Virus record (IMG/VR): IMGVR_UViG_3300004463_000027
Span: 1 to 22,616 of that record
Origin: a virus
DNA length: 22,616 bases
Strand: one strand, 5' to 3'
Position 1 is the first letter of the stretch. Each line of letters starts with the position of its first letter. Below the pieces are notes generated by a model. That model worked only from the letters and a program-made list of their open reading frames with translations. It had not been told where the DNA came from and did no database searches. Positions 628 to 22,271 of the stretch are shown piece after piece. The position numbers and the translations under genes were made by a program.

Positions 628-3180
628 CTATTGACCGATGGTTCTGCCGAAGTCTGGTGCGCGCTGAGGCGCCGATGTGCCTGGCTGCCAATAGTAGGTC
701 TGGCCAAACTCCCGCTCCTGGCGCCGCTGCATGGTATTCAGGTATCCGGGGGACATGAATTCCTGCAACTCATGCACCACCAAGTGGTCAAGCGCGGCCT
801 TCACATACCAGAGGTTGGCACCAGGAATGTTGCCCTTCACGAAGCGCACCAGCTCGGCGCCAAAGTGCGTGTCTTTGCCCTGCGCTGCCTCGACAATATT
901 CCCCTGAGTCAGCCTGAAAACCTCTTCGGCGGCGCCAACTACCGGGCCAAGGAATGCAGCAGCTGGCGAGGTTTCGTGCCGCGTTGTGCCGGAAAACAGG
1001 AAGTCCCCATAGAGGCCGAAGCCGCCGCCTTGCAGGAAGGCTTGAAGCCAGTTCTTGGCGGCATGCTTCTCGCCCCACAGCGCGCGCGGGTCTCGGCCAG
1101 CGATCAACTCCTTAACCTGCATGGCGGCGATACCCAAGCCAAGCGCCAGTGACTGATGCAGGGCCAGATAGCCAACCTTGGCGCCGGTCGTATTCTGCGC
1201 CAGGCCGCGCTGCCAGTGGCGCATGAAGGCTGCAAGTGGCGTAGTCTTGAACAGGAACACGGAGCGTGTTAGTTCCCCCTTCCATGTTCCGCGCTGTAAG
1301 CCGCCGCCAGTCGCCGCGCGCTCCAGCGCTTTAGGCGTGACGACTGCCATATCCACTTCTTCCGCCACGGCGCCAATAAGTTTCAGCGCGGCATCGCGGC
1401 GGATCTTGTCTAGCGTTGCGGTGTAAGCCGGCGATCCAGGCGATGCGCGCGTGGCCAGGTCTGGAATCATATGCTCAAGTGCAGCATCCGGCACGTTGTA
1501 AATCGAATCAGGCGTCAGGATGGTTTCATTGCCGCCCCACTTCTCAGGCGTGGCCGCGCGCCAAACAGTCCAGTCGGCTTCCGTAATGCCCTTGGACAGC
1601 AGGATCTTGTGGTCGTCAGCATCCAGAGCGGACAACGACTTTACATCACGGGTCAGATGCCCAATGCTGTCCATCATCGTGACGCCAAAAGCCCGGCGCC
1701 GCACGTCGGTAATCGCATTCAGGCCAGAAGCGCGCATAGTGGCGTGCGCCAACTTGGCAGGCACGGCAGTTGTCAGATTGTCCTCGCCCCAGCGGTTCAG
1801 ATCGCCAATCGCGGTTTCCAGTGCCAGACCGGCGCGGCGCGCTTGGCGCAACTCTTCCTTGTTGACCAGGTTCATGGCGGCCAGCTCATTACGGAATACC
1901 TGCATCACCGGCATGCGGTTCACGCGCGCCGTGTTGATGATGGTTCCCTCGTCGGCGATGGACGACACCACAGCACTACCCAAGCGCGAGGCAACCAGCC
2001 AGTTGCGGATCGCTTCAAACGCGCGCGCCATCTTCTCACTGGCCACCGGCTGCTGCTCGCCCATGACCACGTTCCAGAGATTGGTCAACTTAGCAACCTG
2101 TTCCTCGTAGCGCCCAATATGCGCCGGGTCAGTTTCCGCGGCCTCTTTCAAAGCAGTGTCGCGGAAGTATTCGAATGCTGCATTTGGATTCGGGCCGAAG
2201 ATTTCGACGGAAGCAGTATCGCGCGCCATGCCGCCAATGTGGTCCACCATGATCTGCAGCAGGCCTTTTTCGCCATAGTTCGCCTGATAGGCCATGTACG
2301 ATTCAGCATCCTTGAAGTGGATCGATCGTGCCTCGGCGTTACGGTTAGCCATCATGCCAGTGCCCTGGCGCTGACCTGGCTGCAGCTTATTGCGTCCATT
2401 AGTGGCGATCGACCGCCATGCCTCGCCAAGGAATGCGCGCACCTGGTCGTCGTTCATCAGGCGCCCGTCATCAAGCACATACTGCTTTCGGTCAAGTAGC
2501 GGCATGATATCTGCCGCCCACTTGTCGGCGCCTGCCTTGGCCACGCGAAGCTGCGCATGGTGCTGCGGAAGCGACCAGCTTTCCAACTTGCCGACCTTGC
2601 CGCCGGCGTTATTGAACTGCTGTCGCATGTCTTCCGCGGTCTTGAGCCACGCCTCGGCCGCCTTCACTACGATAGGGTCAATCCCGTCACGCTCACCAAA
2701 CACAGCCCGGGTGAACGTGGCCACGCCTTCTGTGTTCTCCAGAAAGCCAAAGAAACGCGGATCCAGTTGTTCGAACACGTCAGACAGCCGGCGCAGGTTG
2801 TCGGTACGGATGGACTGCGCCAGCGTTTCGACCGATCGGAACGATCCTTTGCCATCAGTGACAGCGGCAGTCAGTCGCTTCAATGCATCCAGCCGGCCTC
2901 CCTCCCATGCGCCAGTCTGGCGATTCAGGGCATCATGGGTTTCAATCTGGCGCTGCAGGCGGAACTTGGCCAGCCTGGCGTCAGACAGCAAATCAGCCAC
3001 AGCAGCATCAGCGGCGGCGTCCAAGCGCTGACCGTCAGACATCTGGCGCCATGCTTCCGGATCACGGCGTGCAAGCTGGTGCATCGCCTTCGAAATCTTC
3101 TCTTCGATCTTGGCGGATTCACCCTGCGTAAGTTCTCGGCCAATTGCGCGCTGCACGGCAGCTAAGCATTGTGGTTTCAT
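628..3180 (-). CDS. Large internal virion (DNA ejection) protein, 850 aa
   Basis: This is the last of three very large genes between the gp14-like gene and the tail fibre, the position occupied by gp15 and gp16 in T7-like phages. The protein is mostly predicted helical, with charged N-terminal helices (residues 1-200). A more hydrophobic stretch near residues 670-700 (VGYLALHQSLALGLGIAAMQ) could contact a membrane. The C-terminal block with NLWYVKAALDHLVVHELQEF and PGYLNTMQRR is a pattern I recall from internal proteins of other podoviruses. No enzymatic motif is visible. It probably travels in the capsid and helps build the trans-envelope conduit during infection. The start ATG directly follows the TAA of the upstream gene, so translation is probably coupled. 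The role is inferred from position and resemblance. Confidence 0.7.
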   Translation of the reverse strand: MKPQCLAAVQRAIGRELTQGESAKIEEKISKAMHQLARRDPEAWRQMSDGQRLDAAADAAVADLLSDARLAKFRLQRQIETHDALNRQTGAWEGGRLDALKRLTAAVTDGKGSFRSVETLAQSIRTDNLRRLSDVFEQLDPRFFGFLENTEGVATFTRAVFGERDGIDPIVVKAAEAWLKTAEDMRQQFNNAGGKVGKLESWSLPQHHAQLRVAKAGADKWAADIMPLLDRKQYVLDDGRLMNDDQVRAFLGEAWRSIATNGRNKLQPGQRQGTGMMANRNAEARSIHFKDAESYMAYQANYGEKGLLQIMVDHIGGMARDTASVEIFGPNPNAAFEYFRDTALKEAAETDPAHIGRYEEQVAKLTNLWNVVMGEQQPVASEKMARAFEAIRNWLVASRLGSAVVSSIADEGTIINTARVNRMPVMQVFRNELAAMNLVNKEELRQARRAGLALETAIGDLNRWGEDNLTTAVPAKLAHATMRASGLNAITDVRRRAFGVTMMDSIGHLTRDVKSLSALDADDHKILLSKGITEADWTVWRAATPEKWGGNETILTPDSIYNVPDAALEHMIPDLATRASPGSPAYTATLDKIRRDAALKLIGAVAEEVDMAVVTPKALERAATGGGLQRGTWKGELTRSVFLFKTTPLAAFMRHWQRGLAQNTTGAKVGYLALHQSLALGLGIAAMQVKELIAGRDPRALWGEKHAAKNWLQAFLQGGGFGLYGDFLFSGTTRHETSPAAAFLGPVVGAAEEVFRLTQGNIVEAAQGKDTHFGAELVRFVKGNIPGANLWYVKAALDHLVVHELQEFMSPGYLNTMQRRQEREFGQTYYWQPGTSAPQRAPDFGRTIGQ

Positions 3181-5934
3181 TTATGGTCCCATCCGTGCGG
3201 CACATGCCGCGGCTGCATTGTATCCGGGCGCATCCTCCTGCGCGGCGGCAATCCCATCATCGGAATGCTCAAGGGCCAGAGCAGCCGGCATAGACTCGCC
3301 GCCTCCCGTAGCGACATGGGCGTTTGGCTGGTCGAACAGCACTTGCTCAACCGAAGCATCCAACCCTTGGCGCGCCGCGATGTTCTGCTCGGCCTGCCTT
3401 ACTGCCGCCTCCTGCTTTGCCAGCTTCTCTGCTGCTGCCTCCTGTGTTGCGGCACTCGGCCGGCGACGAATTTCGAATTCACCGCTGTGCAGCTTCTTCA
3501 CGGTGTAGGCCGCGCCGATACCCTGCTTGGCAATGTAGGCGCGCGCCTTGGCATCCGTGTCAAAAGACTGGCCGGTGTGTGCATCCACCTCTGGATTATC
3601 CGGCTCAGCTTTTGGCGCCGGCTCTGGCTTGGGCGTTTTCACTTCGGTCCCGTCCAGCGTGGCGCGCAGCAGTTCACCGCGCGACGGCGGCAGAGTATCG
3701 AACATGCCAGCCTGACGCGGGTCGCCCAGCGCCTTGACCTTCTCGTAATAACCCTGGATCGCTTCGGCCATGGCCTTTGGAGAACGGCCTTTCTCTTGAA
3801 AGTGTTGCATCCACGCCACAGACTCAGGGCCAACACCAGAGCCGAACATGTCTTGCTGAGCCAGCCATTGCTCGAGCTTCATACCTTCTGCGCGCAGCAT
3901 GTGCGAAGTGTCGTATGCCTGCAACAGTTGCTGCTGGATGTCCAGGTCGTAGAAGTCCCCGCGCGCAATACCTTGTCGCGTTTCTGCAACAGTTGGTGCG
4001 GCCTTGACCATGGCGCTGGTCAGGTTGCGCGATAGATCATCAGTGCCTTCCACCATGCGGGCGAGTGCTGGCGAGTCGCCATAGGCTTTGTGCAGGATTC
4101 CATTGCGAAGGCGCATTTCGCCCTGCGGCGACAGTCGGCCCTCAGCATCCACAAATTCCGCGCGCTCGCCTTCCGGAACATCGCGCAGCCATTGCGTCAC
4201 GAAATCACGGAGCGAAGCAGAATTCAGGTTCCCACTAGCCGGCATCTCAGGAAGATCCGGCATCCGCTCTGAATCGACGCGCGCTTGCTCTAATGCTGAC
4301 ATGCGCAGACCCTGGCTTTCATTGGACAGGATAGCGGCCAATTTGACGTCAACAGGCGCGGTAAGCTGGCGCACCAGCACCGGCTGTGTCATGCCGTTGA
4401 TTTGCTCTTGCGTCAGGCCAAACTCGGCAGAGCGTTGTTCCAGCGCAACGCGGTACGACTCGCCGGCTCCGCTTGCATATGCCTGTTGTATTGCTGCAAC
4501 ACGTCCATTGCCGCCTACAATTTCTCCAGTAGTGGCCAGGGTAGGGGCGCCCTCTGCCATGCTTGGCGCCTCGCCGAGCCGGCCGAATTCCAGGCTACCG
4601 GCCATCTTGGTAATCTGCAGTTGCGATGCCACACGCGTGCGGTCGCGGAACTGGTTGTCTGCCTTGCCGATCGTTGCGGCCAGTGAATCAGCTTCCACCA
4701 CCATGAAGCGCACAGGCTGGCGCTGGTCGCCTACAAACACTTCGCCGTCACGCCCGACGATCTGCCCTGGCAAGTCGCGCGCTCCAAGTCCCTCCATTGC
4801 ATCCGCGGCTTGCTGCAGCTTCCGGCCGGTGAATTCCGCTTCGTCTGCCGGCGTCAGGCCGCGCGCCTCTACTTGCGCGCGCAACTCGTCCAGTTCATCC
4901 AGGACCGTACGCAGTGGCCCCTCCTCGCGCAGTGCCTGCACTACCTGCGCCTGCATGACGGAGCGGTTCGGCGCGAACTCAGCGCCATCGATGCCGGTTT
5001 GCGACAGGTCTACTTCGCGGCCGGCAATCAGGTCTTCCATGGCCTTGTTCATGGCTTGGCCATGGGCAGAGCGCGACTGTGGGTCAACTGGAACACCCGG
5101 CGCCGTGGATACCTGCAGATGCTGCTGGAGATTGGCTGCCAGCGCTTCATCGGCAAGGGATGGCGGAATAACCGGCGCCTCGCGTCCTGCCTGGTAATGC
5201 AGCAAGCCACCGAATGCCGCGCCAAGAATGGCATCGGTGATAATCTCCTGCGTGTCGAATGCCTTGTATTGCTTGGACACCTCGCCATAGCCGCGCGACT
5301 CCAGCAGTGCAGATGTTGTGCCACGCTGCGCTGCGCCCATGCCAACGTTGGAGGCAACGCCGGTTCCAATTCGGGTTGCCAAGGTCGAGCCAAACGCTGC
5401 AGGCAGCAATACGCCAGCGCCGGCAGCGGCGCCCTGAATGATACCGACCGTTGTCGCTGTAGTTGAATCGACACCTTTTTGCTCTGCTTCAACTTTGGCA
5501 GCGTAGCCTTGAATGCCGCCTACAGCCGCGGCGCCGCCCAGAGGATTGCCGCCAGCCGCCACGGTGCCGCCGATTGCCTGAGGAATCACGGTAGCCAGGC
5601 CATAGCCAAGCTGGCCAATCCTGCCCACATCAGGCCCAGGCATTAGGTAGCGCACAGACTCAGTGGTCTTGATCTGTTCGTTGCGCAGGAAGTCCTGCAC
5701 CGAAGCGCCGCCGAACAGGTCATCAATCTTGCGGGCGATCGGCATCAGCGCTGCAGTGCCACTATCAGCAGCCACCATGGCAGCCTGCGCGCCGGACTGC
5801 AGCAAGCCCAAGCCAAGCCCCTTGCCGGCGCCGGACCACAGCCCCGGGCCAAGGTCGCCAGGCTGGATAGGGTTCATCGCAGCATTCTGTCGTGCCGACT
5901 CGGCGCCGCGCGGGTCCAGGTCGAAGTAGCTCAT
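3181..5934 (-). CDS. Internal virion protein with ddrB/ParB-type domain, 917 aa
   Basis: The protein has three visible parts. Residues about 105-250 are rich in Gly and Ala with glycine-zipper-like hydrophobic segments (YGLATVIPQAIGGTVAAGG, VGIIQGAAAGAGVLLPAAFG), which suit membrane insertion. Residues about 408-560 look like the ddrB-like branch of the ParB superfamily, with FMVVEADSLAAT, DRTRVASQLQI, GEIVGGNGRVAAIQQAY (GNGR at 475-478) and LSNESQGLRMSALEQARVDS. A helical region follows, then a Pro/Lys linker near 770-790 and an Ala/Glu/Gln-rich C-terminus. The ddrB-ParB domain is known from phage and plasmid polyvalent proteins that enter a cell together with the DNA. The gene overlaps its upstream neighbour by ATGA and abuts the next gene. 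Ejection with the genome and DNA binding or protection are inferred. Confidence 0.7.
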   Translation of the reverse strand: MSYFDLDPRGAESARQNAAMNPIQPGDLGPGLWSGAGKGLGLGLLQSGAQAAMVAADSGTAALMPIARKIDDLFGGASVQDFLRNEQIKTTESVRYLMPGPDVGRIGQLGYGLATVIPQAIGGTVAAGGNPLGGAAAVGGIQGYAAKVEAEQKGVDSTTATTVGIIQGAAAGAGVLLPAAFGSTLATRIGTGVASNVGMGAAQRGTTSALLESRGYGEVSKQYKAFDTQEIITDAILGAAFGGLLHYQAGREAPVIPPSLADEALAANLQQHLQVSTAPGVPVDPQSRSAHGQAMNKAMEDLIAGREVDLSQTGIDGAEFAPNRSVMQAQVVQALREEGPLRTVLDELDELRAQVEARGLTPADEAEFTGRKLQQAADAMEGLGARDLPGQIVGRDGEVFVGDQRQPVRFMVVEADSLAATIGKADNQFRDRTRVASQLQITKMAGSLEFGRLGEAPSMAEGAPTLATTGEIVGGNGRVAAIQQAYASGAGESYRVALEQRSAEFGLTQEQINGMTQPVLVRQLTAPVDVKLAAILSNESQGLRMSALEQARVDSERMPDLPEMPASGNLNSASLRDFVTQWLRDVPEGERAEFVDAEGRLSPQGEMRLRNGILHKAYGDSPALARMVEGTDDLSRNLTSAMVKAAPTVAETRQGIARGDFYDLDIQQQLLQAYDTSHMLRAEGMKLEQWLAQQDMFGSGVGPESVAWMQHFQEKGRSPKAMAEAIQGYYEKVKALGDPRQAGMFDTLPPSRGELLRATLDGTEVKTPKPEPAPKAEPDNPEVDAHTGQSFDTDAKARAYIAKQGIGAAYTVKKLHSGEFEIRRRPSAATQEAAAEKLAKQEAAVRQAEQNIAARQGLDASVEQVLFDQPNAHVATGGGESMPAALALEHSDDGIAAAQEDAPGYNAAAACAARMGP

Positions 5935-8492
5935 TCAATCCCCTTGATCTGGCCGTACGCACTGCGCGCCGTATTCAATGGTGTGTTGAGGTCCAGCACA
6001 ATCGGACCGCTTGGGCCATTCAGGTATGCAGCGCCGTTGGTCAGCATGTAGCGCCCGGGGCCGACCGACTCCAGCCCGTAGGCTGACAAGTTGTCAAATG
6101 CCGTCCCTTTCATGTTGTTGCTGGCCATGGCCTGGTTGAATGCTGCGGCCGCGCGGTCCTTGAAATCGCTGTCGGCGATGCCCCACGGTTTCATGACCTG
6201 GCCAAGGCTGTTGTAGTTGATCAGCCCACCAGTTGCCGCGGCAGTCGCCTCTTTCGCAATTCGCGCATCCAGTGCATCCGACAGCACACCTTTCCGATTC
6301 GCGGCGCCGGCGTAGTATGCCTTAAAGGCCTGGTATGCCACTGCGTAGCCACTGGCGTCCGAGCGGAAAGCCGTGCCAACTGCATCATTGAAGGCCAGCG
6401 ACATGTCCGTTTCCTTCGGCATTGGGAACTTGCCGGGGCGTCCGTCCTGCTGTTTGTCGCCCTTGCTCGGGTTGAGAATGGCCTCGCCTTCCAGCATCAG
6501 CGCGGCAACGTTGCGAGGCTGCAGCACAACATCGGGGCCACCAAAGAACCCCGTTGCCACGGTCGCCGGCGTTTGCTTAACCAGGATCGAGCCGGCCACA
6601 GCCGTAACAGGCGAGTCAGGCGCCAGTTGTCCCATGACCGAGTTATAGGCGCGCGTGTCACCAGCCAGTCCAGTGCGCACCTGGTCCAGATACTGCAGCT
6701 TGGCCTGCGTTGGCATGGCATGGAGCGCCATGGACATCTGTGCCGCCTCTCCGTTGGAAAGGATTCGGTATGGAGTGTTGTAATCTTGCGACATCATATT
6801 AGCCACGCCGATGCGCTGGTTGAGCTGTGCGCCGAGTTGGTCAGTCTTGGACATGTCGATAGGTGCCGCACGTGTCAGGCTGTTGCGCTGCGCGAACAAG
6901 ATCGGGTCATCCTGGCGCTGCTTCACAACCTGTTGCGCGGCCTGCAGTCGTACATTCTGGCGCGCATCGGCAGCAGCATAGCCAACACCCTCCGGTGGTT
7001 TGGATGCGGCCAGCGTTGCGGCAATCTGCGCATCCGTCTGGCCGGCGAAGTTCTGGATATCCACCGCCATATCGCGGCCACCCTTGTACGCCGCCGCCTT
7101 GATCGGGCCTTCGATCGGACCGTAGCTCTGCGCGAAGTATTCTGGCGTCAGGTTGAACGGATCCACCTTGCCATCCTTGTGCATGGCCAGCGCGTCACCC
7201 AGCAGGCGGTCGGCATCTCCCTTGCGCTGCGCCTGCCCCTGGCTCACCAGACGCTGAGCCTCATCGATCAACTGATATTGCTGGTGCTGGTCGAGCGCGG
7301 CGAAGGTCTTCGGAATGTTGTCAGAAAATGACAGTCCAGCATTGGCAGTCAGTTGCGGCTGCGTGGCTGCCTCGCCGGCGCCGGCCTTGGCCGTGATCGA
7401 CTTCACATAGTTCTGTGTCTCGGCAGGCAGGTTCGCTAGCCAGTTATCGCCGCCCTTCTCGATGGCTTTGCGCGTGGCGCCCGGACCAGCGTTGTAAGCT
7501 GCAAGTGCCTTGGAAACATCACCACCGAAAGTGTCCAGTTGCTTGGCGAAGTAAGCCGATCCAAGCGCCTTGTTGTACTCGGCATCCGTGCGCAGGCGCT
7601 TTTCATCCCACGGCAGGCCGGCCAGTTCAGCGGCCTCCGGTCCAGTTGCAGGCATGATCTGCGCAATGCCGATAGCGCCAGCACTAGAGGTGATTGGCTG
7701 GCCAGCAGCATCAGTCTGCCGGCCACCAGATTCCTGATTCAGCAAGGCGGCAAACAATGCATCACGGTTCGGCTCTGCGACGGCTGGTGCGGCGCCGGCC
7801 TGCGGCTTCACGCGCGAGGCAATGAATGCTGCCGGGTCGCGTTTCATCTGCCCATACTCGACGGAGCGCGCGGCGTCCTTCAGGTAGGCCATGGCGATTT
7901 CTGCCCGCTTGCCTTCAGGAATGCGCGACTGCGCGGAGATGGCGGCAATGCGGCGCTGCGTCACCTCGTCAAAGCGGTCAGGCGAAGTCTCCAGCACCTT
8001 GTTGTCGGCGTCCATGCCAAGTTTGGTATCGGCTACGACCTTCTCAGTGGTCGCGCGGTCCTGGTGGCTGAACAAGTCCTGGTCGATTCGCGAGCGCATG
8101 CGTTCCGCGTGCTGGTCGAACCACATACGGGATTTCTCGGTCGGCAGCGCTTTAGATTGCTCTTCCTTCCACTTCTTGAACTCAGAATCCGAGGTCTTGC
8201 GCAGATCTTCTCCACCTACCTGCCAGCCCTGTTTGAGCTCGGTCGTGCGCTGATTCCAGAAGGCGTCACCCTCCGATAGCGCATTGGCAGCCGATAGGGC
8301 GGCCTGATCTTCCTGTTTCTGCTCATCAAGGCGCCTGTTCCGCTCGTCAACAGCCATCATGGATTCCGCTGCGCCAGCAATACCTCTCCCCAGCGCCGAT
8401 AAGCCCTGTCCCTCTGAAAGGTTCACGCGCGCCACGCCGACAGTATTGCCAGATGGGCCGATGCGACGTTCGTAGGTTGGAATGCCAGCCAT
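5931..8492 (-). CDS. Internal virion protein with lytic transglycosylase (SLT) domain, 853 aa
   Basis: Residues about 243-366 form a soluble lytic transglycosylase domain that cleaves peptidoglycan glycan strands. The catalytic Glu is E254 in LLNQESGGRQ, followed by SAGAIGIAQIMPATG and the ALAAYNAGPGAT motif. In podoviruses such a domain is carried in the capsid and opens the cell wall for DNA entry; in T7 it sits at the N-terminus of gp16. Here it follows about 240 helical, charged residues and precedes some 490 residues without a recognisable domain. The gene starts just after the gp14-like gene and overlaps the next gene by four bases (ATGA), giving a cassette of three ejection proteins. 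The domain call is firm; placement in the virion interior is by family and context. Confidence 0.9.
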   Translation of the reverse strand: MAGIPTYERRIGPSGNTVGVARVNLSEGQGLSALGRGIAGAAESMMAVDERNRRLDEQKQEDQAALSAANALSEGDAFWNQRTTELKQGWQVGGEDLRKTSDSEFKKWKEEQSKALPTEKSRMWFDQHAERMRSRIDQDLFSHQDRATTEKVVADTKLGMDADNKVLETSPDRFDEVTQRRIAAISAQSRIPEGKRAEIAMAYLKDAARSVEYGQMKRDPAAFIASRVKPQAGAAPAVAEPNRDALFAALLNQESGGRQTDAAGQPITSSAGAIGIAQIMPATGPEAAELAGLPWDEKRLRTDAEYNKALGSAYFAKQLDTFGGDVSKALAAYNAGPGATRKAIEKGGDNWLANLPAETQNYVKSITAKAGAGEAATQPQLTANAGLSFSDNIPKTFAALDQHQQYQLIDEAQRLVSQGQAQRKGDADRLLGDALAMHKDGKVDPFNLTPEYFAQSYGPIEGPIKAAAYKGGRDMAVDIQNFAGQTDAQIAATLAASKPPEGVGYAAADARQNVRLQAAQQVVKQRQDDPILFAQRNSLTRAAPIDMSKTDQLGAQLNQRIGVANMMSQDYNTPYRILSNGEAAQMSMALHAMPTQAKLQYLDQVRTGLAGDTRAYNSVMGQLAPDSPVTAVAGSILVKQTPATVATGFFGGPDVVLQPRNVAALMLEGEAILNPSKGDKQQDGRPGKFPMPKETDMSLAFNDAVGTAFRSDASGYAVAYQAFKAYYAGAANRKGVLSDALDARIAKEATAAATGGLINYNSLGQVMKPWGIADSDFKDRAAAAFNQAMASNNMKGTAFDNLSAYGLESVGPGRYMLTNGAAYLNGPSGPIVLDLNTPLNTARSAYGQIKGIE

Positions 8493-8494
8493 GC

Positions 8495-8977
8495 TTATTT
8501 ACCTCCGATTGCCGTGGTAGTTGCTGCCTTCGGTGCATTGCGGGCGCCATATGCCCCAGCAGCAGCCTGAGCCAGGGAGCCAACAGCCGATAGATAACCA
8601 GCAGACTTCCCAGATTTCCCACTGGCACGCGACGCTGCGGCTTGACTGCGAAGGCCCGATACTCGATTCCCGCCTTCATATCGGATTTGCATTGCATCAG
8701 CCTCAGCGTTAAACAGCGACTGACGGAGCAAATCAGCAGCAGAGCCATTGAGTTGTGCCCCGGATTCGGCGCCGGCAGCAATCTGTGTGCCAATAGCCTG
8801 ACGAGCGCGCGCGCGCTGCTCATCCTCTTGAGTTGAGGCGATTTGCGCTGCTTGCTTGGCATTTTCCTCGCCCTGGGCGGCCTCATAGTTCCCCATGGCC
8901 TCTGCGGCTTGCCCTTGGCGAACCATGCCAATAACGTTCAGCGCCAGGCCGCCAACTGCAATAGCTGCGAATGTCAT
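8495..8977 (-). CDS. gp14-like internal virion protein, 160 aa
   Basis: The protein begins with a hydrophobic segment (MTFAAIAVGGLALNVIGMV) followed by a long Ala/Gln/Glu-rich helical stretch (QGQAAEAMGNYEAAQGEEN, QRARARQAIGTQIAAGAE) and a Gly/Ala/Ser-rich C-terminus. This design, and the position immediately before the large internal protein genes, match T7 gp14, the small ejection protein that inserts into the outer membrane. T7 gp14 is somewhat longer at 196 residues. The start overlaps the end of the cupin-like gene by ATGA (8974-8977), so the two are probably coupled. Assignment rests on context and composition more than on residue-level similarity. Confidence 0.7.
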   Translation of the reverse strand: MTFAAIAVGGLALNVIGMVRQGQAAEAMGNYEAAQGEENAKQAAQIASTQEDEQRARARQAIGTQIAAGAESGAQLNGSAADLLRQSLFNAEADAMQIRYEGGNRVSGLRSQAAASRASGKSGKSAGYLSAVGSLAQAAAGAYGARNAPKAATTTAIGGK

Positions 8978-9465
8978 GATTTCAATTCCTCAAAAATATC
9001 GTCTTCTGTCAGTTCAGCTTCGATCGCGTCAGGGTCGGTCAAATCGGTTACATGGGTAGTGATGAATACCGTATCAGCATGGGCCGTGATGACTCGTTTT
9101 GTGCCTGGATGCGTGATGAAAAAATGGAATCCTGTCAAACGCTTCTGCGCGCCATCGGTCCAGATCGTGCAGTCCCCAAGCACCATGATGAAATGCTTCT
9201 TCTTGTGGGTCTTGGTCACCGCCAGTTGGCCAGCTGGCATTACATAACGGCGCGCGCACTGACCATCGGCATGCAGCGTTTCGACCTGCACAGGGCGCCG
9301 AGGAAGGCCGGCAGCGTCAACAACAGAAGCCATTTCGCCCTGAAGTTTGCGCATGGATTCAAGCGGCATTCCGGGGCCGCAGTCGTGAATAATCGAGCGC
9401 GCAACCATGTCAGCAGTCTGCGCGCCAAGTTGCTGCATTGCCTCAAAAAGTGTAATTTCAGTCAT
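8974..9465 (-). CDS. Cupin-like beta-barrel protein in the tail/ejection cassette, 163 aa
   Basis: I chose the start MTEITLFEAMQQ because the longer frame would run far into the upstream gene, whereas this ATG overlaps its end by only eight bases. The N-terminal 60 residues are helical. The second half (from RRYVMPAGQLAVT) has beta-strands with a cupin-like layout: THKKKHFIMVLGDCTIW, then FHFFITHPGTKRVITAHAD and VFITTHVTD. The His pairs could bind a metal, but the canonical HxH...E set is not complete, so activity is uncertain. The C-terminus is strongly acidic (DPDAIEAELTEDDIFEE). Comparable small cupin-fold proteins occur beside tail genes of podoviruses. It may be structural or a small enzyme; I cannot tell which. 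Confidence 0.55.
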   Translation of the reverse strand: MTEITLFEAMQQLGAQTADMVARSIIHDCGPGMPLESMRKLQGEMASVVDAAGLPRRPVQVETLHADGQCARRYVMPAGQLAVTKTHKKKHFIMVLGDCTIWTDGAQKRLTGFHFFITHPGTKRVITAHADTVFITTHVTDLTDPDAIEAELTEDDIFEELKS

Positions 9466-9895
9466 TTTTCTTGATCCTCGCCCACATTGTACAGTCGCCG
9501 CCATCAGGACGATATGCACGGGCTAGCCCTTCGAATTCGAATCCAAGCATTTCCAGCAGCCTTTCGCCAGGCGTAAAGCCAACATCAACCGCTGATTCGA
9601 TGCGTCGCCATGGCGCCACGTGGTCAATGTAGCCGCGCAGCGCGCGCACCACGCCAACCATGCTTCGGCCAGCATCCCGCGATAATAGTGCCCAGGCCGT
9701 AGCGCAGCCCTGCCACCGCTCATCAAATCCAGCGCAGATCAGAACGTTGCCAGCATCATCCAGCGCCGTGAAAGCCGTGCACCCTTCCAACATGGCGCCG
9801 TACCAATCTTGCCCCAGCACTTCAAGCATATGCTGCTGTGCAGGCTGTAGGTTGATCTGCGCTAGGTGCTGCGCACTGAATTGGATAACCTTCAT
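9458..9895 (-). CDS. gp13-like GNAT-fold protein, 145 aa
   Basis: Size, position after the nozzle gene and sequence pattern match the T7 gp13/DUF2833 family, small proteins with a GNAT (acyltransferase-like) fold. Seen here are an N-terminal MKVIQFSAQHL opening, a central strand FTALDDAGNVLICAGF, a helix with RDAGRSMVGVVRALRGYI and the closing strand/helix pair VGFTPGERLLEMLGFEFEG, which is typical of the end of a GNAT fold. The usual acetyl-CoA pyrophosphate-binding motif (Q/RxxGxG/A) is not clear; RDAGRS is the nearest match, so catalysis is doubtful. In T7 gp13 is needed for virion morphogenesis, where it supports incorporation of internal proteins. The start overlaps the upstream stop by ATGA. 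Confidence 0.65.
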   Translation of the reverse strand: MKVIQFSAQHLAQINLQPAQQHMLEVLGQDWYGAMLEGCTAFTALDDAGNVLICAGFDERWQGCATAWALLSRDAGRSMVGVVRALRGYIDHVAPWRRIESAVDVGFTPGERLLEMLGFEFEGLARAYRPDGGDCTMWARIKKND

Positions 9896-21139: not shown

Positions 21140-21213
21140 TGGAGCAGCGGGACAGAATCGAACTGTCGTCTTATGCTTGGAAGGCATTAGCTCTGCCATT
21201 GAGCTACGGCTGC
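21140..21213 (-). tRNA. tRNA-Gly (TCC)
   Basis: All four arms of a 74-base tRNA can be drawn, including an encoded CCA. The anticodon loop CTTCCAA gives TCC, reading GGA/GGG glycine codons. The T-loop is normal (TTCGATT). Two blemishes are seen: a C-C mismatch at acceptor positions 6-67 and an A-A at 27-43 of the anticodon stem. It is the last tRNA before the terminator. Confidence 0.88.
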
Positions 21214-21265
21214 TTTGAAACTGGAGCCGGCCCCTTGACTAGAGGGGAGTCATCCGGCATTGATC

Positions 21266-21341
21266 TGGCAACGGATCATGGATTCTAACCATGGACCTAC
21301 GGGATCAAAACCCGCTGCTCTACCAACTGAGCTACGCCCGC
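21266..21341 (-). tRNA. tRNA-Gln (TTG), irregular: unpaired acceptor strands and altered T-loop
   Basis: The length (76), D-arm, anticodon arm (loop TTTTGAT, anticodon TTG), variable loop, T-stem and encoded GCCA are regular. The 5' acceptor strand GCGGGCG does not pair with the 3' strand ATCCGTT: only two Watson-Crick pairs and one G-U are possible. The T-loop reads TTAGAAT, with A in place of the almost invariant C56 that contacts G19. It may be a recombinant or decaying gene. Confidence 0.7.
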
Positions 21342-21372
21342 AATCGCTTGTTTCCAATGCGATGTAGTGATG

Positions 21373-21419
21373 AGCGCCAGGCGGCTTCCACCCGGCGCTA
21401 GGGCCACCTTACAAGCCCT
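21373..21419. other. Two adjacent hairpins between tRNA-Gln and alkB genes
   Basis: AGCGCCAGGCGG (21373-21384) and CCACCCGGCGCT (21388-21399) pair over 12 positions with two wobbles around a three-base loop. AGGGC (21400-21404) and GCCCT (21415-21419) form a second stem directly beside it. No T-tract follows on either strand, so a standard terminator is unlikely. It may mark an RNA-processing site between alkB and the tRNA. Confidence 0.5.
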
Positions 21420-21425
21420 GCGAGG

Positions 21426-21971
21426 TTACGCTTCGTAACCCCTGAAAGTGATGCTGATGCGAGGACCGCACACAAACCCCGCCTTGGGGATTCTGTGCAT
21501 GTGCGTGTCCTGCATGCCAGGCGCCATTACGCACAAGCTGCCGTTTTCCAGCAACACCTTGGTGACGTCCTTAGGGTTCTCGTTCGGGTAGAACCAGATT
21601 TCCCTTTCGGCGCCCAAGGTGACGATGGCGATAGGACGGTTGTCATCCATCTCTGGCGAGTTGTCTGCGTGGCCACCCAAGTGGTCGCGGCCGTCTTCGT
21701 ATCCGTTCAGGAATGCGACCTCGAACTTAACGCCCAATGCGGCTTCGACTTCGGCTTTGATGGCCAGAATCGCAGGGTGCCATGCATTAGGCAGATACTC
21801 GCGCTCGCCGGCGCCGCGGCCGTAGACGTAAGGCACGGCGACTTCGTTGCAGTAGTATTCGCGCCTTGGCGTCGAACCCCTGCGTTCCCACGCCAGCTCG
21901 TTCCATAGAACGTCGAAGGCGGAGTTCGGATTGGCCACGAAGCCGGGCCTATAGCTGACACAGTCCAACAT
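21426..21971 (-). CDS. AlkB-like 2-oxoglutarate/Fe(II)-dependent dioxygenase, 181 aa
   Basis: This family removes alkyl groups from bases in DNA or RNA by oxidative demethylation. The iron ligands are visible as H101 and D103 in GGHADNSPEM and H159 in MAPGMQDTHMHRIPK. The 2-oxoglutarate-binding arginines are R171 and R177 in PRISITFRGY. The substrate-loop region (REYYCNEVAVPYVYGRGAG) and PIAIVTLGAEREIWFYP also fit. I start the gene at ATG 21971 because GAGGAAA lies six bases upstream; a longer frame would run into the tRNA-Pro gene. It is flanked by tRNA genes on both sides. DNA repair against host or environmental damage is the usual proposal, but an RNA or tRNA substrate is also possible. 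Confidence 0.88.
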   Translation of the reverse strand: MLDCVSYRPGFVANPNSAFDVLWNELAWERRGSTPRREYYCNEVAVPYVYGRGAGEREYLPNAWHPAILAIKAEVEAALGVKFEVAFLNGYEDGRDHLGGHADNSPEMDDNRPIAIVTLGAEREIWFYPNENPKDVTKVLLENGSLCVMAPGMQDTHMHRIPKAGFVCGPRISITFRGYEA

Positions 21972-21989
21972 AGTGGTTTCCTCAAAAAG

Positions 21990-22068
21990 TGGTCGGGACA
22001 ACTGGATTCGAACCAGTGATTTCCTGCTCCCAAAGCAGGCGGCTTAAACCAGACTTGCCTACGCCCCG
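21990..22068 (-). tRNA. tRNA-Pro (TGG)
   Basis: A regular 79-base tRNA with encoded CCA. Acceptor strands CGGGGCG and TGTCCCG pair with two G-U pairs, the anticodon stem CCTGC/GCAGG encloses TTTGGGA (anticodon TGG), and the T-loop is TTCGAAT. The D-loop is long (13 bases between GGC and GCC). The 3' end lies 18 bases before the alkB ATG. Confidence 0.92.
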
Positions 22069-22084
22069 AGTAAAAATCACATTG

Positions 22085-22157
22085 CATGGCAGGGTGGACT
22101 TGAACCACCAACCTTCGGATTTGGAGGCCGCTGCACTGCCAATTGTGCTACTGCCAT
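22085..22157 (-). tRNA. tRNA-Trp (CCA), weak anticodon stem
   Basis: Acceptor (ATGGCAG/CTGCCAT), D-arm (GCAC/GTGC) and T-arm (GGTGG/CCACC, loop TTCAAGT) all pair perfectly. The anticodon loop CTCCAAA gives CCA, and the discriminator base is G as in bacterial tRNA-Trp. The anticodon stem GCGGC/TCCGA pairs only at its three central positions: the pair next to the loop is C-U and the outer one G-A. CCA is not encoded (gene is followed by CAA). Identity as Trp rests on the anticodon. Confidence 0.75.
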
Positions 22158-22189
22158 GCAATGTGTTTTCTTCGTGTACTACTGGATAC

Positions 22190-22271
22190 TGGCAGAGCGA
22201 GTTGGATTCGAACCAACGACATATCCTAGGGTCAAAACCTAGTGCCTTGAGCCTGACTTGGCGACCGCCCT
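22190..22271 (-). tRNA. tRNA-Gln (TTG), second copy, large D-loop
   Basis: An 82-base tRNA with encoded GCCA. Acceptor strands AGGGCGG and TCGCTCT pair throughout, with two G-U pairs. The anticodon stem CTAGG/CCTAG encloses TTTTGAC (anticodon TTG). The D-loop has 13 bases and the variable loop eight, both longer than in the usual bacterial tRNA-Gln. The T-loop TTCGAAT is normal. This copy looks fully foldable, unlike the other tRNA-Gln. Confidence 0.88.

Follow-up and report, generated by a model that had tools for sequence, protein, structure and literature searches.

A gp16-type podovirus protein, probably ejected, that holds a ddrB module in a variable slot and shares a pair of terminal cysteines with gp17

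Introduction

DdrB of phage P1 is a head (virion) protein that belongs to the Dar anti-restriction set and has been linked to protection against type I restriction (PMC9024508, PMC12810830); it is also listed as aiding the addition of DarB to the capsid (PMC9024508). The ddrB domain was described in late phage proteins in 2017, including an Acinetobacter prophage protein in which it is fused to a lysozyme (PMC5512222). The ParB fold, to which such domains are assigned, is now regarded mainly as an NTP-binding module (PMC12704722, where DdrB is not mentioned).

Two questions about podoviruses are of interest here: by what means the ejected proteins assemble as a conduit, and in what way effectors accompany the DNA. 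We analyze a virus fragment of 22.6 kb (IMG/VR record IMGVR_UViG_3300004463_000027; 22,616 nucleotides), the whole of which we call the window. We consider it fairly likely that one of its genes combines a gp16 frame, a ddrB cargo and a cysteine-bearing tail, that its product is joined to gp17, and that the cargo acts on DNA. Neither the ddrB domain nor the sort of place that it occupies is new; what adds interest is the slot that holds it, together with the pair of cysteines.

Results

The gene and its neighborhood

A preliminary description of the window had noted a 917-residue open reading frame at positions 3181-5934. The frame does exist, but it lies on the minus strand, and the plus-strand frame is interrupted by stops. 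The gene and its immediate neighbors are as follows.

3181..5934, minus strand: gp16-type ejection (internal virion) protein P0001, 917 amino acids, with a ddrB module as putative cargo (profile matches, epsilon15 synteny)
4918..5934, minus strand: N-terminal frame domain of gp16, residues 1-339, matching phrog_1145, rich in glycine and alanine and mostly helical (helices from a low-confidence model)
628..3180, minus strand: gp17-type virion structural protein P0002, 850 amino acids (phrog_684)
5931..8492, minus strand: gp15-type ejection protein P0003, with an SLT transglycosylase domain and no cysteine (PF01464, 3e-16)
8495..8977, minus strand: gp14-type internal virion protein P0005, with no cysteine (phrog_418, 3e-22)

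All of the main genes of the window lie on the minus strand, including those for the terminase, the portal, a GP7-type major capsid protein, the adaptor and the nozzle. After the nozzle come a GNAT-like protein, a small tail-fiber-like protein, the gp14-like protein, the SLT transglycosylase protein, gp16, the phrog_684 protein and a tail-fiber N-terminus. This order matches that of genes 7 to 17 of Salmonella phage epsilon15, gp11-gp17 included. The two neighbors named in the preliminary description are confirmed. The SLT protein lies directly upstream of gp16 and the gp14-like gene precedes the SLT protein; gp16 sits between an SLT-bearing gp15 and gp17, just as it does in epsilon15. A tRNA cluster at 21140-22271, also on the minus strand, holds five genes (Gly, Gln, Pro, Trp, Gln).

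The phrog_1145 profile matches residues 1-339 of the protein with an E-value of 7.8e-59, and this N-domain is 21-38% identical to that of gp16 in named phages. We conclude that the gene is the gp16 of an epsilon15-like podovirus, and that its product is probably packaged and ejected. The earlier suggestion of a probable ejected virion protein bearing a ddrB domain is therefore well supported, by phrog_1145 (8e-59) and by the gp11-gp17 gene order shared with epsilon15; the wider proposal, that the protein enters the host and there may shield DNA or block a defense, is plausible. A structural model of full-length gp16, built from five sequences, was poor (pLDDT 46) and is not used here.

Glycine-zipper segments of membrane type had also been proposed for residues 105-250. 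This region consists of 20% glycine and 18% alanine, 16 of its 146 residues are charged, and it contains several moderately hydrophobic stretches (19-residue means of 1.0-1.7). The zipper itself does not survive comparison with shuffled sequences, since GxxxG occurs 5 times as against 5.4 times in the shuffles (P 0.68) and so is not enriched. The region may contact a membrane even without an enriched zipper motif.

The ddrB module

Within gp16 the module comprises the following features.

4363..4728, minus strand: ddrB-like ParB domain PF18763, residues 403-524 (Pfam profile and predicted fold)
4501..4512, minus strand: GNGR motif, residues 475-478, the GxxR of Box II of the ParB fold (three of its four residues invariant in 40 of 40 modules)
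3643..4362, minus strand: helical second half of the module, residues 525-764, common to P1 DdrB (homology, model)

The PF18763 match is strong (E = 3.6e-26; 92.1 bits, compared with a Pfam cut-off of 27.6). As for its extent, the preliminary description had placed the domain at about residues 408-560, but the homologous unit is larger, reaching from about 396 to 764: in tblastn searches, a Manatee Spring podovirus matches residues 396-764 at 38%, and P1 DdrB matches residues 428-738 at 32% identity over 311 residues (1e-23). The GNGR motif is where it had been reported. All 40 aligned modules keep G475, N476 and R478 of this motif unchanged, along with Q428, R430, Y494 and N538. R478 supplies the conserved active-site arginine of PF18763 in 40 of 40 modules. 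We read Y494 as the tyrosine of the extra helix described in PMC5512222. By eye, and preserving order, Q428-R430 can be mapped onto Box I, GNGR onto Box II and N538 onto Box III, a mapping that profile comparison does not confirm.

A model of residues 396-770, predicted from 40 sequences, shows a ParB-like fold with a mean pLDDT of 87.8 and a pTM of 0.81, in agreement with the fold first proposed. When the model was compared with known structures by a second aligner, the ten best rows were all ParB, Noc, KorB or PadC (Z 6.7-8.4); most of these matches cover about 90 residues at 2.5-3.4 A, and a Z near 8 lies in what the tool calls its "common" range. Foldseek gave no significant match of the model to the PDB, sequence and profile searches of the PDB found no ParB, and a direct profile comparison of the module with one chromosomal ParB was negative. 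Because of these negative comparisons, the ParB assignment rests on Pfam together with the predicted fold, which support it but fall short of proof.

The protein differs from a canonical ParB partition protein in that it has no PF02195 match, and none of the scanned window proteins resembles ParA. Of the P1 Dar partners DarA, DarB, Hdf, DdrA and Ulx, none was seen among the open reading frames scanned in this 22.6 kb fragment. A scan of the genome contigs found only two ddrB loci.

A variable slot between frame and tail

In order to avoid bias, we gathered relatives of gp16 in three ways: through the N-domain, through ddrB, and through the neighboring gp17. The gp16 proteins of named phages have in common the N-domain (about 340 amino acids) and a short terminal tail, while the middle varies. 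That middle has no recognized domain in epsilon15, SPN1S, Shamal and YeP5. It consists of an SLT domain plus ddrB in TPWB-05 and Piluca, and of ddrB alone in the window and in relative L096. In L097, L098, L110, L113, L122 and L193, ddrB is accompanied on one side or the other by a Zeta-toxin-like kinase domain; in L181 it is accompanied by a GNAT-like domain. A polyvalent-type ADP-ribosyltransferase occupies the slot in L187 and L245, and L247 combines ddrB, the ADP-ribosyltransferase and Zeta. The swap is directly visible in the nearest relatives, L097 and L098, where the kinase domain is inserted precisely at the point at which the ddrB module meets the tail.

Across these relatives the length of the protein ranges from 430 to 2553 amino acids, and yet the frame and tail remain constant. 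The comparison of sequences shows gp16 as a frame, formed by N-domain and tail, around a slot with interchangeable cargo. Polyvalent proteins carry several effector domains on a single delivered chain (PMC5512222); the window gp16 has one recognized domain of this sort, and relatives have two or three. The longest of the proteins, of 2553 amino acids (L245:338-7996), has long stretches without a recognized domain in addition to its ADP-ribosyltransferase. In the open-licence literature, we found no description of this frame-and-slot arrangement.

A single cysteine at each end of the gp16-gp17 boundary

Three further features lie around the junction of the two genes.

3184..3240, minus strand: conserved C-terminal tail of gp16, residues 899-917, roughly AxxCxLRxG (family alignment)
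3202..3204, minus strand: codon TGT of Cys911, the sole cysteine of gp16 (sequence)
3166..3168, minus strand: codon of Cys5, the sole cysteine of gp17 (sequence)

In the window, then, the 917 residues of gp16 and the 850 of gp17 include one cysteine each, and there are none in gp15 or gp14. The same pattern holds throughout the family. After grouping at 60% identity, 35 of 36 clusters place the tail cysteine 4-8 residues before the C-terminus of gp16; in the lone exception, L167, the gene is split in two, and the cysteine-bearing tail closes its second half. Cys5 of gp17 is present in 26 of 26 clusters and is almost the only cysteine of that protein. From the N-domain up to the tail, the body of gp16 contains no cysteine in 32,464 residues; the corresponding counts are 0 in 25,934 for gp15 and 1 in 5,854 for gp14. 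Neighboring proteins, by comparison, contain 0.83% (gp12), 2.0% (gp11) and 1.9% (gp13) cysteine.

Eight distant phages have the pair as well (BcepC6B, Acinetobacter 4316, SI2, VP2 of Vibrio, K225, Tr60_Ab31, Skadi-3 of Pelagibacter, and ct3Et533); in each of them gp16 has one cysteine 3-10 residues before its end, and gp17 has one at positions 4-12. In one clade (L272-L282) the ddrB slot protein and gp17 form a single protein of 1850-2760 amino acids, and the profile of the gp16 N-domain finds no match in its N-terminal part. Seven of eight such fused proteins are free of cysteine, and the eighth has one near its middle. All of these fusions are related to one another as a single clade, so that fusion and the accompanying loss of the pair count as one event.

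The tail cysteine is encoded by TGC in 19 cases and by TGT in 17. Because the two codons are used almost equally, it is the amino acid that selection keeps. What counts against our main reading of the pair, given below, is the overlap, in many genomes, of the LRG part of the tail with the probable ribosome-binding site of gp17.

We also considered whether ddrB modules are poorer in cysteine in the gp16 slot than elsewhere. They are not: modules of both groups are all cysteine-free, and so the module has lost its cysteines outside the gp16 slot as well. No cysteine occurs in about 10,600 residues of modules from all contexts, sorted into 29 groups that include P1 DdrB and giant polyvalent proteins. 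Low cysteine may be a general mark of ejected proteins. The GNAT-like gp13 homologue (9458-9895) has a normal cysteine content, unlike gp14-gp17, and judged by this content it is perhaps not ejected.

Discussion

How gp16 and gp17 might be joined

The simplest reading of the cysteine pair is a disulfide between the gp16 and gp17 molecules at their terminal cysteines; we give such a bond an even chance or slightly less, and more broadly propose it or a similar contact. We favor it because the fusion clade joins exactly the C-terminus of gp16 to the N-terminus of gp17, the sites of the sole cysteines. In our main reading, gp16 is probably packaged, and ejected together with gp14, gp15 and gp17. 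The two cysteines would hold gp16 and gp17 together end to end, and the simplest link would be a disulfide that forms once the virion is released or in the periplasm of the host. As a further step, the reducing cytoplasm could then free gp16 along with its cargo. A capsid assembled in the reducing cytoplasm need not form disulfides, which counts against the bond.

A fuller version of the disulfide reading, for epsilon15-like podoviruses, would also take in the purge of cysteine from the rest of the ejected proteins. The disulfide would make gp16 and gp17 into one chain for the passage through the oxidizing envelope, the reducing cytoplasm would cut it and free gp16 with its interchangeable effector cargo, and in the fusion clade the gene fusion would replace the bond. 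Removal of cysteines elsewhere would serve to keep wrong bonds from forming in the oxidizing envelope. We advance this version tentatively, and think it somewhat more likely to be wrong than right.

Alternatively, the cysteines may stay unbonded, with the gp16 tail and the gp17 head serving as signals for assembly or loading, docked on each other, on gp15 or on the portal, and with the cysteines kept for packing or for binding a metal. Two observations favor this view: in every case the short tail forms the extreme end of gp16, and the gp17 head (MKxxCxxAVxxAxGR) is conserved beyond its cysteine. On the other hand, the purge of cysteine elsewhere in gp14-gp17 suggests the avoidance of wrong disulfides, and both cysteines are absent from the fusion clade. 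We give docking without a bond somewhat less than an even chance. A mere DNA-level effect of the nearby gp17 start can be rejected, given that TGC and TGT are about equally frequent and that TPWB-05 keeps both cysteines despite an open reading frame between the genes.

In the open-licence literature we found no report of the gp16-gp17 cysteine pair, although such absence is no proof of novelty.

What the cargo might do

Once inside the cell, the ddrB module would bind an NTP and, at an early stage of infection, act on the incoming DNA or close to it; its P1 relative is believed to do so as part of the Dar anti-restriction set. Of a nuclease, a packaging factor, and a switch or clamp that depends on NTP and sits on the incoming DNA, we lean towards the last, since NTP binding is the main property now ascribed to the ParB fold (PMC12704722).

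The module could instead be an NTP-regulated nuclease which, once injected, would nick or degrade the DNA of the host or of rivals. A nuclease was proposed in 2017, on the model of ParB-like nucleases such as Osa and GmrS (PMC5512222), and the arginine pocket is conserved in ddrB modules. However, later work casts the ParB fold chiefly as NTP-binding (PMC12704722), and we see no separate nuclease motif in the ddrB module. A nuclease therefore seems to us unlikely.

It is similarly improbable that the module is a packaging or assembly factor, acting inside the capsid on behalf of other internal proteins and having no task in the host cell. The aid that P1 DdrB gives to the addition of DarB to the capsid (PMC9024508) speaks for such a role. 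Yet the open reading frames scanned in the window, itself a fragment, include no DarA- or DarB-like gene, and the slots of relatives contain enzymes typical of effectors.

Implications

The fixed frame and tail show where effectors are located in a large group of phages, so that new effectors can be read off between the N-domain and the tail. The cysteine pattern, for its part, is an unusually sharp sequence signature, and it points to one possible bond between two named residues.

Comparison with known systems

The gp16 of the window, with its neighbors, is most readily compared with gp16 of epsilon15 (NP_848224.1) and its Uetakevirus relatives, which share the gene order, the N-terminal 340 residues, the single-cysteine tail and Cys5 of gp17. 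The epsilon15 protein differs in being 634 amino acids long, with no Pfam domain in the slot. The gp16 proteins of Acinetobacter phage TPWB-05 and Alcaligenes phage Piluca share the frame, the tail and a ddrB module in the slot, but they carry an SLT domain before that module; the Piluca record already notes a likeness to epsilon15 gp16.

P1 DdrB, for its part, has the ddrB-ParB domain and the helical region in common with the window protein, at about 30-32% identity. It differs in that it lacks the gp16 frame and tail, has a C-terminal metallopeptidase region (PMC5512222), and belongs to a myophage. By contrast, we found no sequence match between the window gp16 and the ejection proteins of T7 and P22, even though T7 gp16 and P22 gp16, gp20 and gp7 likely do the same job, that of a conduit for DNA ejection. 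Since T7 gp15 and gp16 and P22 gp7, gp20 and gp16 contain no cysteine at all, paired terminal cysteines of the kind seen in gp16 and gp17 are absent from them.
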